Source of the DNA: Nanobdellota archaeon
GTDB lineage: Archaea; Nanobdellota; Nanobdellia; Parvarchaeales; Parvarchaeaceae
Direction of reading: 5' to 3'
Length of the DNA: 21,142 bases
NCBI GenBank assembly: GCA_021818905.1
Contig: JAKASS010000016.1
Coordinates: 1 to 21,142 of the forward strand
The position numbers were made by a program, and so were the translations under genes. The notes beneath the pieces are model-generated. The model did not search any database, was not told the origin of the DNA, and worked only from the letters and a program-made list of their open reading frames with translations. Positions 4,671 through 20,506 of the stretch are shown here, piece after piece; the first letter of the stretch is position 1, and each line of letters begins with the position of its first letter.

Positions 4671-7600
4671 TTATGTTATAAGTTTTATGAAGCCAGATTT
4701 TGGTTCAAATATGTCTCCCTCCCTTTTTAGTACCGATATTGCTTGGTCAACGACGTCTATGTTCATCCCGCTTTTTGACGCATCTTCATATATTTTTGTC
4801 ATTGACAGGGCAGAACCTTTTGGAAGCTGTTCGGTTTCCGATCTTATTATTGATTTTATTGTTAATACCGTACTTCTTTGAGAAGAGGAAATGCCGGTTA
4901 TCACGCGGTCGATGTCAAGTTCGCCGGTGTTCTTGTCTATGCCTACTTCACCTAAATAGGCCATCATAAGATCTATGGCTCGTCTCGCGTCTTCTATTGT
5001 TGCGTATTCTGATAGTCTTACTTTTGCGCTTGCCTCCGAAAGCCTTACTATTGCTTCTAATTGCCTGGCGGATATAGGCACAGGCTTAACTTCTTCGCCC
5101 TCGGTAGAGTATTGGCTTCTTAATTTTAGGTAGAACTCCTGGATTGCGTTCATTGCATCGTTTGAAAGCATTGGTCGGCAGTTTTGTTTTGCGTAAGCAA
5201 TGTACTTCTTGAGCAGAGGGGTAGGGATTGCTGGTTTGTTCTTGTTTATGTCTTTGTTCGCTTCTAATATCCTGCTAGCAATTAACTTATCCGTGTCCTT
5301 GTTGGGCTTATCTTTCATTATGAAGATTAAATCGAAACGATTTATCAAAGTTGAAGGAAGTTCTATTTGGGAAGATATTACATCGAAAGGGTTGAATCTA
5401 CCAAGTTTTGGATTTGCGGCGGCAAGTACGCTAGTCTGCGCCGAAAGAGTTGCGTGGATGTTGGCTTTTGATATACTTATTGTCTGCTGTTCAAGTGCTT
5501 CGTGCATAGCGACTCTATCATCTTTGTTCATCTTGTCAATCTCATCTATCGCGAGTATACCTTTGTTAGTTAATGGAAGCGCGCCGGCTTCGAGTATGTA
5601 GCTTCTTGTCGCTTCATCTTTTATTATCGTAGCCGTAAGACCGGCTGCACTTGAACCCATACCAGTAACATATCTCGCCTTTGGCGCAATGCCACTTACA
5701 TATTTTAATGTAGCGCTCTTGGCGGTGTTATGGGAGATTATCCCATTTGCTATAAACCTGTGCCCTTTTGGGACTTCTATATCGTATACGTCTTTTACAC
5801 CAAGTGGTCGTATAGAAACGATTTTTTCAAAACGATGTCGGTGGTGTCTTTTCTCTATTGAAGCGGCCACTCTCGCAATCTTTTTTAAATCATCCTGTTT
5901 CTTCTTGATCGCAAAACCTATATATTTATAATATTTTTCTATGCCATCGGCGCTTCTTATAAAAAGGTTGTAACCATTCTCATTTTTATAGTGGATAATC
6001 CTAGAAGCGATACCGAATCTCAAAAGTAGTATCTGCAAGTCTCTTACTAGTTCTATGTAGGCCGATTTAAATGAAACGAACCCCAAGCTTTCTCTTCCCG
6101 GGTTTTGATAATTTACTACGTAGCCGTCTGCGGTGAAAAGCCATTTTAAAAATTGTGCGGCAACTTTATTACCGGATGCGAGTACTGAATCCGGTACTCT
6201 TTTTTCAGCTAGGAACGCGAGGTTTTTCGCTATGTCTTCGCTGTCTATCAAGATAGTATACATTTTCTCTGTCCGATTGATAATCCTATTTTTGTAAATG
6301 GACGGTGAAGGCGTTCTTGAGCTAACTTTTGGAGATAGAGAAAATGTCTTTTTCACTAAAGAAACTAGGAGCTCTAATAATTCAATTTCTTTATTCGAAA
6401 CTATTAATCCACATTTGTGTTTGTCGCTATTTACCCGGCCATCTCCTAGTATATATCCAAATAACGCTGCTACGTCTTCGGTTACCAAACTCGGAAGGCT
6501 GCCTTTAAATTTCGGTCCAAACTTGCGTGGGTTTAATTTAAATCCGGTGGGTTTTAAGGAAGTTATCGTGCAGGGTATCCAACTTATTACCTGCACTTCA
6601 TCGCCTACTTTCATCCTATCCAGTCTTTTCCATGTTCTAGTCACTTTTTTACTCAATCTTACAGTTTCTCCGGTTTTTGGATTTTTTCCGTCTATTATGT
6701 TTTCTCTGTCCGCGATTTTTTTTATTAGAAGAGGATGGTTATAGGTACCAACTATGCTTTTGCCAGATTCGGTAACGATCTCCATCACCGGTTGATTTGG
6801 ATAATAGTGAAAAGTAGTTGCGGTATCTCTAGTATATCCTTGGCCAGTTAAAATCTGTTGGCTTAATGGCTGGAGATGTCGCTCGCCTAGGTTTTCTAGT
6901 TTTATGATCGCCCCATTCCCAAGTACTATTCTTTCGTCCCCGATTAGACAGCCCGGGTCCCCGCATAAAAGTAAATGGATATCTCCACGGATTACGCTGT
7001 TGCCATCAGCGCCGACTTTTCTCACACCGCCGAACAGTTGTAATACGACAGCATCTTTGATTGCATCATGACCGAATACATTTGGCGTTATAGAGTCCCT
7101 GAATTTATTGTAGATGGTCTTGTCTTGTGCCATCTCTCTTATGGTCGCTTCCTCTTCTTTTGTTATTATTATCTCTTCAAAACCCTGTTCGACGGCTTCT
7201 AGATAAGAAGCTTCTATAGATATTTCAGAGGTTCTAGATTTTTTGCCGCTGGGAAATATAACAGGCGCCTCATTTACTATGCCGGTTACAACTACTTTAT
7301 TACCCGGGATAATGTTCTTTTCAAATTTAGGGTCGACAAGGTCGCCCTTTAGCATAACGTCTATGTGTTCTGGTTGCGCCCCGCCTTCTAGATCTTCCGG
7401 AGCCTCTTCAAGTATTATCTTTTGCGAGTCTATCAGTTCTTTTTTGAAGGTATTAAATCGACCTTTTTTGCCGCAGTTTGTACAGATGGATGGCATCTTT
7501 ATGGTTTTTTCTTTTTGTTCTACTTTTATCACATGACCACAGCTTTGGCATTCAAATTCTATCGCAGTGACCATTGGCCTTACGCTTACCGCTACTTTTA

Positions 7601-7928
7601 TAAGGCCGCCGACCTGCAATATTTTGCCGATGTGTCGGCTTCTTATATCCCTTATTTTAATTTCGGATGTAGTTGGAAGATTTCTTATCCTTACCTCAAG
7701 ATTTAGTTCCTTGTATACAGCGCCGAGCTCGCTAATGAAATGTTTTATGTCAGCTATAGCTTCAACTGGGGATCTTATTATATAGTCGCCAAGTTCTGGG
7801 GAAAAATTGTCTATATCAGCAAAGTCGATCAAGACAGAAGATTTGTTTGTAGCGATTATAGCTTTAAGTTGGTCGTTAAGTTGTCTGTTTACAAACGAAG
7901 AAATTAAATCATCTGGATCCGATTTCAT
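4671..7928 (-). CDS. mcm: Replicative DNA helicase MCM, interrupted by an intein
   Basis: The reading frame encodes 1085 residues. Removing the intein (residues 327-734) leaves 677, the normal size for archaeal MCM. The N-terminal OB domain has a zinc site at Cys127, Cys130, Cys149 and Cys152. The AAA+ part has the Walker A motif, split as GDPG (323-326) and TAKS (735-738), Walker B ILAIDEIDKM, sensor 1 in VLAAANPKLGRF and the arginine-finger region LPSTLINRFDLIF. A winged-helix tail follows. The hexamer unwinds DNA at the fork. Because the intein splits the P-loop, the helicase cannot bind ATP until splicing occurs. The OB-fold protein, aIF2-beta and DUF424 follow in the same operon, which couples replication and translation-initiation genes. 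Confidence 0.97.
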   Translation of the reverse strand: MKSDPDDLISSFVNRQLNDQLKAIIATNKSSVLIDFADIDNFSPELGDYIIRSPVEAIADIKHFISELGAVYKELNLEVRIRNLPTTSEIKIRDIRSRHIGKILQVGGLIKVAVSVRPMVTAIEFECQSCGHVIKVEQKEKTIKMPSICTNCGKKGRFNTFKKELIDSQKIILEEAPEDLEGGAQPEHIDVMLKGDLVDPKFEKNIIPGNKVVVTGIVNEAPVIFPSGKKSRTSEISIEASYLEAVEQGFEEIIITKEEEATIREMAQDKTIYNKFRDSITPNVFGHDAIKDAVVLQLFGGVRKVGADGNSVIRGDIHLLLCGDPGCLIGDERIVLGNGAIIKLENLGERHLQPLSQQILTGQGYTRDTATTFHYYPNQPVMEIVTESGKSIVGTYNHPLLIKKIADRENIIDGKNPKTGETVRLSKKVTRTWKRLDRMKVGDEVQVISWIPCTITSLKPTGFKLNPRKFGPKFKGSLPSLVTEDVAALFGYILGDGRVNSDKHKCGLIVSNKEIELLELLVSLVKKTFSLSPKVSSRTPSPSIYKNRIINRTEKMYTILIDSEDIAKNLAFLAEKRVPDSVLASGNKVAAQFLKWLFTADGYVVNYQNPGRESLGFVSFKSAYIELVRDLQILLLRFGIASRIIHYKNENGYNLFIRSADGIEKYYKYIGFAIKKKQDDLKKIARVAASIEKRHHRHRFEKIVSIRPLGVKDVYDIEVPKGHRFIANGIISHNTAKSATLKYVSGIAPKARYVTGMGSSAAGLTATIIKDEATRSYILEAGALPLTNKGILAIDEIDKMNKDDRVAMHEALEQQTISISKANIHATLSAQTSVLAAANPKLGRFNPFDVISSQIELPSTLINRFDLIFIMKDKPNKDTDKLIASRILEANKDINKNKPAIPTPLLKKYIAYAKQNCRPMLSNDAMNAIQEFYLKLRSQYSTEGEEVKPVPISARQLEAIVRLSEASAKVRLSEYATIEDARRAIDLMMAYLGEVGIDKNTGELDIDRVITGISSSQRSTVLTIKSIIRSETEQLPKGSALSMTKIYEDASKSGMNIDVVDQAISVLKREGDIFEPKSGFIKLIT
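5727..6950 (-). mobile_element. Intein with LAGLIDADG homing endonuclease, in the MCM P-loop
   Basis: The in-frame insert of 408 residues starts with Cys (CLIGDERIVL) and ends with ISHN, followed by Thr as the +1 extein residue. Splicing blocks are present: block A at the start, block B with GTYNHP (intein residues 68-73), and block F/G with VYDIEVPKGHRFIANG before the terminal His-Asn. Two dodecapeptide motifs, LFGYILGDG (163-171) and FLKWLFTADG (267-276), keep their acidic residues, so the endonuclease looks intact. The insertion point between GDPG and TAKS is a known recurrent intein site in archaeal MCM/CDC21 proteins. The insert is in frame without stops, which argues for recent activity or selection for splicing. 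Confidence 0.95.
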
Positions 7929-13115: not shown

Positions 13116-13125
13116 CGTTGGACGG
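13116..13125. repeat. Target-site duplication, left copy
   Basis: CGTTGGACGG occurs directly before the left inverted repeat and again at 14256-14265 directly after the right one. The 10-base direct repeat marks the insertion target. The next base (A) is the same on both sides, so 11 bases is an alternative reading. Confidence 0.85.
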
Positions 13126-13141
13126 AGGCTGTTGCATAATT
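13126..13141. repeat. Left terminal inverted repeat of the first IS
   Basis: AGGCTGTTGCATAATT, exact complement of 14240-14255. Identity stops after 16 bases. Confidence 0.9.
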
Positions 13142-13203
13142 ACCCGATCCGTTTACAGATCATGCCATCGCCCTATGCTTTTTGCCGTGGCCGATCCGGT
13201 CCT

Positions 13204-14157
13204 TTACCTTATCTCGAGAAGCTTATTGTACGTCAGGCACTTGATAAGCATCTCCTTTCTCAGGCTCTTCCATTTTCTAGAAGAGGCATATCCTCCGAAC
13301 AATGCCTTGAAGGTAGAATAGGACCTCTCCACGGAAGTCCTTCTCCCGTATCCTACCTTATCCTTCCATCTCTGCTGCCAGTACTTCATCCTTTCCGTCT
13401 CGCTGAAGAACATCCTTCCTTTCTCCGCCAGAGGATGCTTCCTCTCAAGATGACCGTGGGGAAGCAGGCTGAACTGCTCCATCACTGCTTTCTTCCTCGG
13501 AAGACAGCCTGGAGCAGTGGGAGAAGCGGTCTGTCTTATCTTTATCCCAGACCTTATCCCTCTCTTTTCCAGGAAAGAGAAGTTATCCTTCGCATCGTAG
13601 GCTCCGTCGGCGTAGACGGTATCGCCCCTTCTTGCGGCTTCCCTGACAATGGCAAGGAACTTCCCGTTGTCGCCTATGCGATCGGAGGTGAGCCTGTAGT
13701 TCACCAGCTCCCCGGTCTCCGCGTCCTCCAGCGCATGGAACTTGTAGAACGGCTGTCTTATGCTATATTTGCCGCTTCTGTAGTCCCCTCGGTAGTGTGT
13801 AGATATCCCAGTGCCGTCGATGGCCAGATACCTTCCCTTTCTCTTAGTCCTGTTTATGAGCCATTTTATCCCTGCAGAAGCAAGCCTTCTGCAAAGCTGC
13901 GAATAAGAAGCGCAGCTTCCGGCTAGGCCCTTTATCAGGACTGCCGTCTGCCTGAATCCCTGTCTCATAAGGGACTTGAAAGCGCTTGCATTGACGATCT
14001 CCGTCTCAGAATATCTATACGGCCTTCCTATCTTTCCCTTGTTCATCTTTAAGAGTTCTATGGCGCCGTTTCCGACTACTTTCTTCAGTTCGTCCACTAC
14101 GAACTGAAGTTTCCTCTGTACTAAGTCTTTAAATCCTGTCGATGCTTGTTTATCCAT
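13204..14157 (-). CDS. Transposase, DDE type with Y(2)R(3)E(6)K motif
   Basis: The 317-residue protein has the RNase H-like catalytic acids of IS4/IS5 transposases. The first Asp is in YLAIDGTGIST, the second in DTVYADGAYDAKDN. The C-terminal YGRRTSVERSYSTFK satisfies Y(2)R(3)E(6)K exactly. An N-terminal helical DNA-binding part includes KIGRPYRYSETEIVNASAFK (about 46-65). It catalyses cut-and-paste movement of the element. Translation starts at the ATG at 14157, preceded by AAAAAAGGAGGC, a strong Shine-Dalgarno sequence. That is unlike the leaderless host genes. The same site is buried in a hairpin (14158-14202). No stops or frameshifts are seen, so the gene looks functional. A long antisense frame over it is ignored. 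Confidence 0.92.
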   Translation of the reverse strand: MDKQASTGFKDLVQRKLQFVVDELKKVVGNGAIELLKMNKGKIGRPYRYSETEIVNASAFKSLMRQGFRQTAVLIKGLAGSCASYSQLCRRLASAGIKWLINRTKRKGRYLAIDGTGISTHYRGDYRSGKYSIRQPFYKFHALEDAETGELVNYRLTSDRIGDNGKFLAIVREAARRGDTVYADGAYDAKDNFSFLEKRGIRSGIKIRQTASPTAPGCLPRKKAVMEQFSLLPHGHLERKHPLAEKGRMFFSETERMKYWQQRWKDKVGYGRRTSVERSYSTFKALFGGYASSRKWKSLRKEMLIKCLTYNKLLEIR

Positions 14158-14202
14158 AAATGCCTCCTTTTTTGTTTCTTCAATAAAAAACAGGAGGCAT
14201 TT
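14158..14202 (-). promoter_or_regulatory. Hairpin that covers the transposase Shine-Dalgarno site
   Basis: In the transposase mRNA, AAATGCCTCCT-type and AGGAGGCATTT arms are perfectly complementary over 11 bases (14158-14168 with 14192-14202). The pairing can extend through a T5/A5 stretch after one bulged C, around a loop of about 11 bases. The 3' arm contains the AGGAGG ribosome-binding site just before the ATG, so folding would block initiation. Such structures in IS leaders are known to prevent transposase synthesis from read-through transcripts. Whether the folding here does that is inference. Confidence 0.72.
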
Positions 14203-14239
14203 GTCTGATTTATCGCTTATCCTGGGCTTTCTGCAATCG

Positions 14240-14255
14240 AATTATGCAACAGCCT
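14240..14255. repeat. Right terminal inverted repeat of the first IS
   Basis: Exact complement of 13126-13141; the right target-site copy starts at 14256. Confidence 0.9.
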
Positions 14256-14265
14256 CGTTGGACGG
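14256..14265. repeat. Target-site duplication, right copy
   Basis: CGTTGGACGG, identical to 13116-13125. Confidence 0.85.
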
Positions 14266-14639: not shown

Positions 14640-15371
14640 TTTGCGGCAATCGATAATTTAAAAATGAGAAGGCCGGCTGAATCTGACAAGAATCTAATTT
14701 TTACTTTACATGATAAAGGATATAGCCTTAATCCTTCATCAAAGCAGTTAAATTTACCAAAAAACGACGATATATTACTACATCAGGAAAAAATATGGCA
14801 GAAAGATTCGGCCAATAAAGACAGACCAGAAATTCAATAGAGACCTTGGAGAATTTTTAGGAGCATTCATCGGCGATGGTCTACATTTAAAGTAAGAAAT
14901 AGATATGCGTACATGATCCGCTTCTATCTTAGCAATGAAGAAATCCAATATGCGCAATGTCTTTCCGATTTATCAGCGAAACTTTTTGGCAGACAATCAT
15001 ATTTGCGGGACGGAAAACATAAGGTCGGGGATAGTTGCCGTAGAGCAAAAATGGATAGCAAATACGTGCACAATTTCTTAAAAAATATATTAACGTTTAC
15101 AAACGACAAATCCCATACAGTAAAAATAAACCGTTCAATATTAAAAAAGGGCAAAGAATCTTTGAAAGGCATAGTAAGCGGTATGATTGCTACAGACGGG
15201 TCCGTTTACTGTGGAAAGTACGGTGTGCATATAAACTTTTCAACCATCTCCAAAACATTAGCTAGACAATACAGCAGAATCTTAAAATTGTTTGGAGTCG
15301 AGCATTCAATTTATAAAAATCCAAGAAAAGGTTTAGAGAGATTAGTTTATAGAATTATAGCAATCCTCGAA

Positions 15372-15384
15372 AGTAATCCTACAC
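15372..15384. repeat. Left inverted repeat of the IS630-type element
   Basis: AGTAATCCTACAC; 11 of 13 bases match the complement of the right end. Confidence 0.7.
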
Positions 15385-16413
15385 TCCGTCCTTTAATGTC
15401 TTTCTGAGAGGAGCCAGAGAGCACACGCTCATCACTTCTTCCGGAGGCACGGAGTTTACGAACCTTGCCATAGCAAAGGCCATCTGCCTTGCGGATCGGA
15501 AGAAGCGGTTGTCAAGCAGCTTCCTGCGGATATGGTTCCACCAGTATTCCTGGGGGTCGAGCCATGGAGAATAAGGGGGAAAGAACCTTACTTTGAGGTC
15601 GGGATGCCGCTTTAGGAAGCGCTTTACCTTCTTCGAACTATGCACGCGGAAATCGTCCACGTACAGCAGTATCCTCTTGCCAGCGAACCTGTCCGCTATC
15701 TTCCCGAGGAACTTCATGAAAGCTGGAGTCTTGGCGCTCGAGGACGAGGACTGTACGATCTCTCCAGTGAGAGGGGAGACGGCTCCGAAGACGTTAGTCC
15801 TCTTCATGTGGTAAGCTGGAGCCTTTATTATCAGTCTTTCGTCGAAAGTCCATCCGTATCCTTTCCTGAGCGAGCCTCCAGCGGACATCTCGTCCTCGAA
15901 AAGCGCGACCGTGTCCTTATCCAGCGATCTTAGCGTTTTAAGTGTCCTCTTGGCGAATGCAAGCTGTTTCTTTAAGTCTGCTTCGGCGTACTCGTGGACG
16001 GCTTTGACGTAGTGTCCTCCCATGCCCAATAACGTCCTGCGTATGGTCTCCCTTGAGACCTTGGCACCCTTCTCCTCGAAGTAAAGCTGCAGGCTTTTCG
16101 TGTCCCACATCGTGACATCGTGACCGTGCTTTGAAGGATCGTTCTCCTCTACCAGCTTCTTTATCTCTTTCTTCTCCTTCTCCCCAAAGGATGGCGGTCT
16201 TCCCCCCTTGGGCTTGTCCGACAGCGTCTTCTCGTGTTTCCACTGCAGCATCCAGTCGTACACTGTAGACCGGTCGACCATAAACGCCTTCGAAACCTCG
16301 CCTATCGATCTGCCGATGCTCAAGAAATGGAGCGCGAAGTATCTAATGCTCTCTTTCTTGTCCTCGCACTTCTTCGCTTTTTTCCTTAAAACTTCTTCGT
16401 CTTCTTCTAACAT
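15379..16413 (-). CDS. IS630-type transposase
   Basis: From the ATG at 16413 the protein has 344 residues, the usual size for IS630. An N-terminal HTH region has SIGEVSKAFMVDRSTVYDWM. The linker GGRPPSF and KLVEENDPSKHGHD-type region follow. The catalytic core has Asp in VALFEDEMSAGG, a second Asp in LLYVDDFRVHS, and Glu in YSPWLDPQEYWW. The spacing between the last two is 34 residues, the IS630 D34E signature. A longer frame reaches a GTG at 16524 inside the inverted repeat, but that would add 37 residues unlike the family. The GGAGGGGGG run about 12 bases upstream of 16413 favours the ATG. No stops are seen. The stop lies 7 bases inside the left end. Confidence 0.9.
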   Translation of the reverse strand: MLEEDEEVLRKKAKKCEDKKESIRYFALHFLSIGRSIGEVSKAFMVDRSTVYDWMLQWKHEKTLSDKPKGGRPPSFGEKEKKEIKKLVEENDPSKHGHDVTMWDTKSLQLYFEEKGAKVSRETIRRTLLGMGGHYVKAVHEYAEADLKKQLAFAKRTLKTLRSLDKDTVALFEDEMSAGGSLRKGYGWTFDERLIIKAPAYHMKRTNVFGAVSPLTGEIVQSSSSSAKTPAFMKFLGKIADRFAGKRILLYVDDFRVHSSKKVKRFLKRHPDLKVRFFPPYSPWLDPQEYWWNHIRRKLLDNRFFRSARQMAFAMARFVNSVPPEEVMSVCSLAPLRKTLKDGV

Positions 16414-16684: not shown

Positions 16685-16805
16685 CCACCCATAGCTCAAT
16701 GGCAGAGCGACCGGCTGTAGAAATAAACTAAGTGCTATTATCATAGTGCGATGAAGATAATCAGCGGTCACCGGTAGGTTGGGGGTTCAAGTCCGCCTGG
16801 GTGGA
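16685..16805 (+). tRNA. tRNA-Tyr (GTA) with an intron
   Basis: Acceptor strands CCACCCA (16685-16691) and TGGGTGG (16798-16804) pair fully, with discriminator A at 16805. The D arm is GCTC/GAGC (16694-16697, 16705-16708). The anticodon stem is ACCGG (16710-16714) with CCGGT (16771-16775), and the loop CT-GTA-G places GTA at 16717-16719. The T arm has TTCAAGT with one G-G mismatch in the stem. The C1-G72 pair is the tyrosine identity pair of archaea and eukaryotes. The intron sits after position 37. CCA is not encoded. Confidence 0.92.
16721..16769 (+). other. 49-base intron of tRNA-Tyr at position 37/38
   Basis: The intron interrupts the anticodon loop between G37 and A38, the canonical archaeal site cut by the splicing endonuclease. 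ATTATC (16737-16742) and GATAAT (16756-16761) can form an internal hairpin. A bulge-helix-bulge fold at the junctions is expected but I have not drawn it base by base. No protein is encoded. Confidence 0.85.
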
Positions 16806-20240: not shown

Positions 20241-20506
20241 TGACAGGCTAGCCGGGGAGTCAGTCCCTCCCTGCAACGCAAATGGACTTTAGGCGTGGCG
20301 AAAGCACGACCGAGGGGCGGTAATTTCATATACGCTAGCAAAGCTATCTGAGAGTCACAGCCCTGTGGGATGCTTTTGTTTGAAAACCCAGCCAGGCCCG
20401 GAAGGGAGCAACTGTAATTAAATGAGGGCGTGCTTGCAGGTAACCTGCGAGGAGAAAATGTTGCTATCCTCTGTATGGATAGCCGTTTCGAAGTCGTGGC
20501 CTGTCA
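20241..20506 (+). ncRNA. ffs: Signal recognition particle 7S RNA
   Basis: The 5' TGACAGGC and 3' GCCTGTCA close helix 1, typical of archaeal SRP RNA. The Alu part has GGCTAGCCGGGG, CCCTGCAACG and GAGGGGCGG, in the usual order. The S part has the nearly invariant helix 8 core AACCCAGCCAGGCCCGGAAG then GGAGCAACTG (20385-20414), with the GGAA tetraloop that binds SRP54, and a later CTATCC/GGATAG stem. The length (about 266) is a little under the usual 300. The RNA organises SRP19 and SRP54 for membrane targeting. Any antisense frame over it is not a gene. Confidence 0.92.

Follow-up and report, generated by a model that had tools for sequence, protein, structure and literature searches.

The window analysed here, a stretch of 21,142 nucleotides of archaeal DNA, contains a transposase gene that begins directly after a perfect hairpin in which its Shine-Dalgarno (SD) site is embedded, and the locus raises the question of whether this hairpin separates the element's own messages from those that read into it from outside. 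Control of this kind is familiar from bacteria: in IS10/Tn10 and IS50/Tn5, members of the IS4 family, read-through transposase messages are inhibited when an inverted repeat close to one end of the element, with the ribosome-binding site (RBS) in its inner arm, folds back, and the elements' own transcripts start inside the repeat and escape.

The element, its leader and the host background

The transposase gene (13204-14157, minus strand) encodes a DDE-type protein of 317 aa of the IS5 family, which matches the profile DDE_Tnp_1 (9e-19) and scores 150.3 bits with the NCBIfam model transpos_IS5_2 (cut-off 140). It belongs to a complete IS5-family insertion sequence (IS) of 1132 bp (13125-14256, minus strand), here called group A, with 17-bp terminal inverted repeats that are identical at both ends (GAGGCTGTTGCATAATT; 14240-14256 on the side of the transposase start and 13125-13141 on the side of its end, both annotated on the minus strand) and an identical 8-bp target-site duplication on either flank (CGTCCAAC in minus-strand reading; 14257-14264 and 13117-13124, respectively). 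A second full-length copy lies elsewhere in the genome with the same length, 98% identity and its own pair of 8-bp duplications (ATTTTTGT), and membership of the IS5 family is borne out by the terminal repeats and duplications at these two independent sites. Within the group-A gene, a stretch of about 410 bp (13340-13750) is 81-84% identical to the genes of another IS5 group, A1, in the C10, C4 and C17 copies; the A1 genes are much more distant outside this part, a pattern that suggests that IS groups have recombined.

From the element end to the ATG, the leader measures 99 nt. Read on the minus strand, it passes through the 5′ or anti-SD arm of the hairpin, AAATGCCTCCT (14192-14202), a loop of 23 nt (14169-14191) that is A-rich ahead of the 3′ arm and diverges in sequence among relatives, and the 3′ arm, AGGAGGCATTT (14158-14168), in which the SD AGGAGG (14163-14168) matches the 16S anti-SD CCTCC; the ATG follows at once. 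The arms are complementary at 11/11 positions and, with the A/T extension included, form a 16-nt repeat at 94%, just as the sequence-only reading had described, and the leader fold that it proposed to compute came to -22 kcal/mol for 14140-14230, where shuffled sequences averaged -12.0 (z = -3.65). As in the IS10 type, the inner arm carries the SD and the region of the start site. Two further roles for this leader were considered and rejected: that of a terminator, since the T-run of the window loop is absent from relatives and from the more distant group B described below, and that of a short upstream frame in the 5′ arm (MPPVFY), which is absent from the group-A relative in genome G005 and from group B. 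Another perfect 11-bp hairpin, at 14083-14109 within the transposase coding region, was likewise dropped as a feature, and is probably due to chance because relatives do not keep it.

For the host background, we surveyed the leaders of 314 ORFs with a minimum length of 150 aa, representing about 40% of a genome of 944,665 bases in 25 contigs. TATA-like hexamers and sites peak at 24-26 nt ahead of the start codon in this sample, so that most genes are probably leaderless, and an SD-like 5-mer at -18 to -3 is found in 9.6% of the ORFs versus 1.3-2.2% in control slots, which agrees with the earlier claim of a mostly leaderless host in which an SD is unusual. The 16S anti-SD is intact (GGATCACCTCCT), and the six sampled transposases of groups A and B have SD pairing probabilities of 0.91-1.00, all within the top ten of the 30 SD-bearing ORFs. 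A perfect inverted repeat of at least 11 bp ending at the start codon was found in four of the 314 leaders, all belonging to IS5 transposases (the window gene, the 98% identical copy of it and two from another IS5 group); among 3140 shuffled leaders there was none, the longest perfect repeat being 10 bp.

Several other features of the window were observed. The MCM helicase gene (4671-7928) has an apparent in-frame intein, judged from its translation, and interrupted remains resembling a LAGLIDADG-type endonuclease or intein frame (14840-15407) lie just upstream of the end of an IS630-family element. A tRNA of 121 nt (16685-16805), matched by Rfam and missed by ARAGORN, probably contains an intron because of its length. 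An archaeal SRP RNA (20241-20506) stops 6 bases short of the group-B transposase frame at the contig end.

Conservation and recurrence of the hairpin

Group-A leaders were found in other species of the genus, namely in G019, in G005 and twice in G016, and a fifth, in G003, has lost the middle of the leader. Relative to the window, these leaders keep 17/17 positions of the terminal repeat, 8-10/11 of the 5′ arm, 13-17/23 of the loop and 10-11/11 of the 3′ arm; coding identity is lower and drops off in broken copies. One base pair in the G005 leader is compensated (GC to AU) with the SD core retained, and at one pair in two group-A leaders G-U pairing substitutes. Of the two G016 leaders, G016a, a broken copy, has two unpaired arm positions and G016b has one.

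The same design, with different arms, is seen in group B, a very distant IS5 group whose element of 967 bp has some 30 matches in this genome and 9-bp duplications in several copies. The transposases of the two groups resemble each other in one 95-residue local match (28% identity), and the traits in common with the IS5 family (transpos_IS5_2) are a transposase above the cut-off, terminal repeats and duplications of 8 bp (A) or 9 bp (B). The window itself includes part of a group-B IS5 transposase at the contig end (20512-21141, minus strand; 87% identity to the group-B transposase), its N-terminus and leader lying beyond the contig. The 17 readable group-B leaders sort into three sub-groups, B1, B2 and B3, and two hybrids. 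In B1 (AACTACCTCCTT / AAGGAGGTAGTT) and B2 (AAGCACCTCTTT / AAAGAGGTGCTT) the pairing is perfect over 12-14 bp and reaches into the start codon; the six arm differences between them amount to three fully compensated base pairs, and the SD is retained in both (AGGAGGT or GAGGTG, with 6-7 matches to the anti-SD). Across the group, 11/17 leaders are perfectly paired, 4/17 (B3) have one uncompensated mismatch, a single C-A, and 2/17 (the hybrids, L019 and L037) have two or three. Each hybrid looks as if it had taken one arm from each of two sub-groups, which leaves the hairpin weakened or destroyed and makes these leaders natural test cases for de-repression; the fold of L037 is essentially gone (z -0.58), and one of the hybrids sits in an intact gene.

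The arms of group B usually change together, but not always. The comparison of copies that the sequence-only reading had suggested thus turned up compensated pairs (three between B1 and B2, one in G005), and also some of the uncompensated arm mutations that it had named as evidence against a fold-back role, in B3, in the hybrids and in the broken group-A copy. Column-shuffle tests of covariation in groups A and B are weak because distinct sequences are few, and the pair counts alone were not clearly above those of shuffles (about 0.1).

Matched arm changes could also arise if the repeat were a palindrome acting at the DNA level, as a transposase or repressor site or through arm-templated repair, with no role in RNA. 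Such repair can yield matched changes without selection and would account for B1 and B2 equally well, and the IS ends are close. However, the arms differ among group-B copies with >90% identical transposases, so a protein site would not persist, and every arm set includes the SD and ends at the start codon; moreover, B3 resembles a stepwise intermediate, and the arm spacing of 22-25 nt is unusual for an operator. We consider a purely DNA-level role very improbable.

Further examples came from other genomes. In G020, a 47% relative of group B has a stem that covers the SD and part of the start codon, and in G185, which belongs to another family, a two-copy element at contig ends has a perfect stem of 11 bp (AGTTTACCTCC / GGAGGTAAACT) ahead of an ATG; this element is probably a transposase gene, judging from its repeat nature and from DDE_Tnp_1 pieces at other contig ends. 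An 8-bp stem precedes a decayed frame in G011. The design is found in other Nanoarchaeota as well. Class-wide, across 89 DDE_Tnp_1 loci, a stem of at least 7 bp lies over the SD in 8/177 ORFs, most clearly in G150; the design is recurrent, but in a minority of DDE_Tnp_1 loci. The bare pattern CCTCC..GGAGG..ATG is unusable alone because it was not enriched over control in most related genomes, and its matches were pursued only ahead of transposase-like or multi-copy genes. In related families, it precedes the ATG of multi-copy elements that are truncated by contig ends, in G185 (L159, L160), G182 (L161, L162) and G162 (L156-L158), and among the multi-copy elements of these three genomes a long perfect stem was found in G185 only.

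When the arms of eight hairpins were exchanged among one another, the real combinations totalled -111.9 kcal/mol versus a mean of -64.0 for swapped arms, and 1/40320 permutations was as good as the real pairing; the eight were partly chosen for folding, and the result indicates matched arms but is not an unbiased significance. Short perfect repeats do occur by themselves, as with the unconserved 11-bp example in the coding region, but with none in the shuffled leaders, conservation in relatives and recurrence with unrelated arms, a chance inverted repeat is refuted in practice.

The SD-hiding hairpin is not a feature of the IS5 family as such, because the sister IS5 groups A1 and A2, closely related and from the same genome, leave their SD exposed. 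Upstream of that SD, their leaders (L005, L006, L008, L009 and L061) contain a different hairpin, enclosing a GTGG-rich, SD-like stretch, in which stem changes are matched (GGATCT/AGATCC, GGACG/CGTCC, GGGATCG/CGATCCC). The A and B leaders may share ancestry rather than being independent, because the DNA around their 3′ arms is alike (85% identity over 40 nt).

Promoter geometry and the proposed switch

The energy needed to open positions -14 to +3 was computed for the full message and for a message starting in the loop. With both arms present, opening costs 14.4-15.0 kcal/mol in the window versus 2.1 for a start at -27; from the loop start, the cost falls from 15.7-18.0 to 3.1 kcal/mol in B1, from 13.6-16.4 to 5.1 in B2 and from 17.3-17.9 to 4.1 in G185, and in the hybrids L019 and L037 it is only 4-8 kcal/mol. 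Because these costs differ so much, the SD is closed or open according to whether the message includes the 5′ arm.

Which messages include it is a matter of where transcription starts. Next to the 5′ arm, on its outer side, lies a TATA-like site (AGCGATAAATCAGA, 14204-14217, minus strand), centred at -53, which predicts a start at about -27 (about 14184), within the loop. This outer site occupies the same position in 5/5 group-A leaders (score 4.1-5.7; 2-7% of control slots), although it is mediocre against the genuine-site median of 7.1 and weak in group B (2.6). In group A, a start before the 5′ arm requires a TATA centre no closer than -70, and in that region the best scores inside the element are -2.7 to 0.9; group B would need one at -75 or further, and the element ends at -72. 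The corresponding centre in G020, -79, is the very end of the element, and in G185 the limit of -64 with an element end near -68 leaves no space for a full site. Given this spacing and these scores, full hairpins should arise only from promoters outside the element.

This geometry bears on the proposal that the full hairpin belongs to the normal mRNA and acts as a constant throttle, keeping translation low and perhaps relieved by a small RNA or by conditions. A precedent exists in ISPpu9 of Pseudomonas putida, where a leader structure buries the RBS and its weakening gave 26-fold reporter activity (PMC8450116), and the opening cost of 14-15 kcal/mol in the window would suit such a role. The window element resembles ISPpu9 in having its RBS buried by leader structure, but the ISPpu9 leader is long, is carried on the element's own mRNA and is opened by the antisense RNA Asr9. 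A throttle would require a promoter placed so that the 5′ arm is transcribed; in group B such a promoter falls outside the element, and for it group A has no fitting in-element TATA-like site. This spacing speaks against a full hairpin in the element's own mRNA. We regard a constant throttle as unlikely.

A second TATA-like site, in the loop itself (TGTTTTTTATTGAA, 14179-14192, minus strand; score 5.5 in the window), predicts a start near -2, and an own transcript beginning at the ATG would have neither arm and no need of the SD, with read-through still blocked. Leaderless genes seem to be the majority in this genome, and the loop site scores 5.9 in B1 and 5.6 in B2, the implied starts in these and the window copy being at -2 to -4. 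However, in the four group-A relatives the loop site scores below zero (-0.9 to -5.8), and it is weak in the G020 relative of group B (1.2) and in G185 (1.7). In addition, the arms, although they change, always retain their complementarity to the anti-SD, for which a leaderless message would have no use. A leaderless own transcript thus seems possible in the window copy, B1 and B2, but quite unlikely as the explanation of the design.

The reading that we favour, and hold to be reasonably probable, is that the group-A leader is a fold-back switch that separates own from read-through transcripts, as in IS10. A read-through message from a neighbouring promoter would carry both arms, and their pairing would bury the SD and touch the start codon, so that little transposase would be made from it. 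Transcription from the element's own promoter, at the outer TATA-like site, would begin within the loop, giving a message with the 3′ arm only and a short, A-rich, unpaired leader that would be translated through the exposed SD. An element landing downstream of an active promoter would not thereby be switched on. Whether the own message starts in the loop or is leaderless, read-through would be silenced and the own message would not. What the computations show is the hairpin and where it lies, how rare it is, that it is conserved and recurs with other arms, and how the promoters are spaced; the start in the loop and the block to translation are what we infer. The fold-back control that the sequence-only reading put forward is strengthened by conserved arms around a diverged loop, compensated arms in group B, the arm-swap result and this geometry, and is weakened by the uncompensated copies, the mediocre outer TATA-like site, the exposed SD of A1 and A2 and the small share of ORFs at DDE_Tnp_1 loci that have such a stem. 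More tentatively, several IS groups in mostly leaderless archaea may independently have kept an SD-led start since an upstream arm can hide the SD, so that SD use itself would discriminate own from read-through messages.

Relation to known systems and significance

Like IS10 and IS50, the window element has an inverted repeat near its end with the RBS in the inner arm, and its own transcripts are expected from the predicted promoter to start between the arms; unlike them, it belongs to the IS5 family, and its host is an archaeon, which has promoters of the TATA type and genes that are mostly leaderless. In IS200, a stem-loop in the 5′ leader of tnpA also occludes the transposase RBS (PMC3196728, PMC12594629). 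However, IS200 is a Y1/HUH element that lacks terminal repeats, whereas the window element has a DDE transposase and terminal repeats and is not of the IS200 type; the second stem-loop by which IS200 terminates incoming transcripts has no evident counterpart in the window element. By analogy, the window case would work like IS10 and represent an archaeal case of an already known mechanism. In the literature searched, no archaeal case of such a transposase-RBS hairpin was found, and we claim no priority.

Overall, the hairpin is real, conserved and recurrent, and its role is well supported but unproven. The design lends itself to a simple sequence test elsewhere: an SD arm, an upstream anti-SD arm, and a promoter between the element end and that arm. 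If the switch is true, a safety catch of bacterial ISs would also work in archaea with eukaryote-like promoters, and more than one IS group in a host-dependent lineage with reduced genomes would have evolved or acquired it. It would then explain how IS elements can lie next to genes in a small genome and yet not be activated by them.
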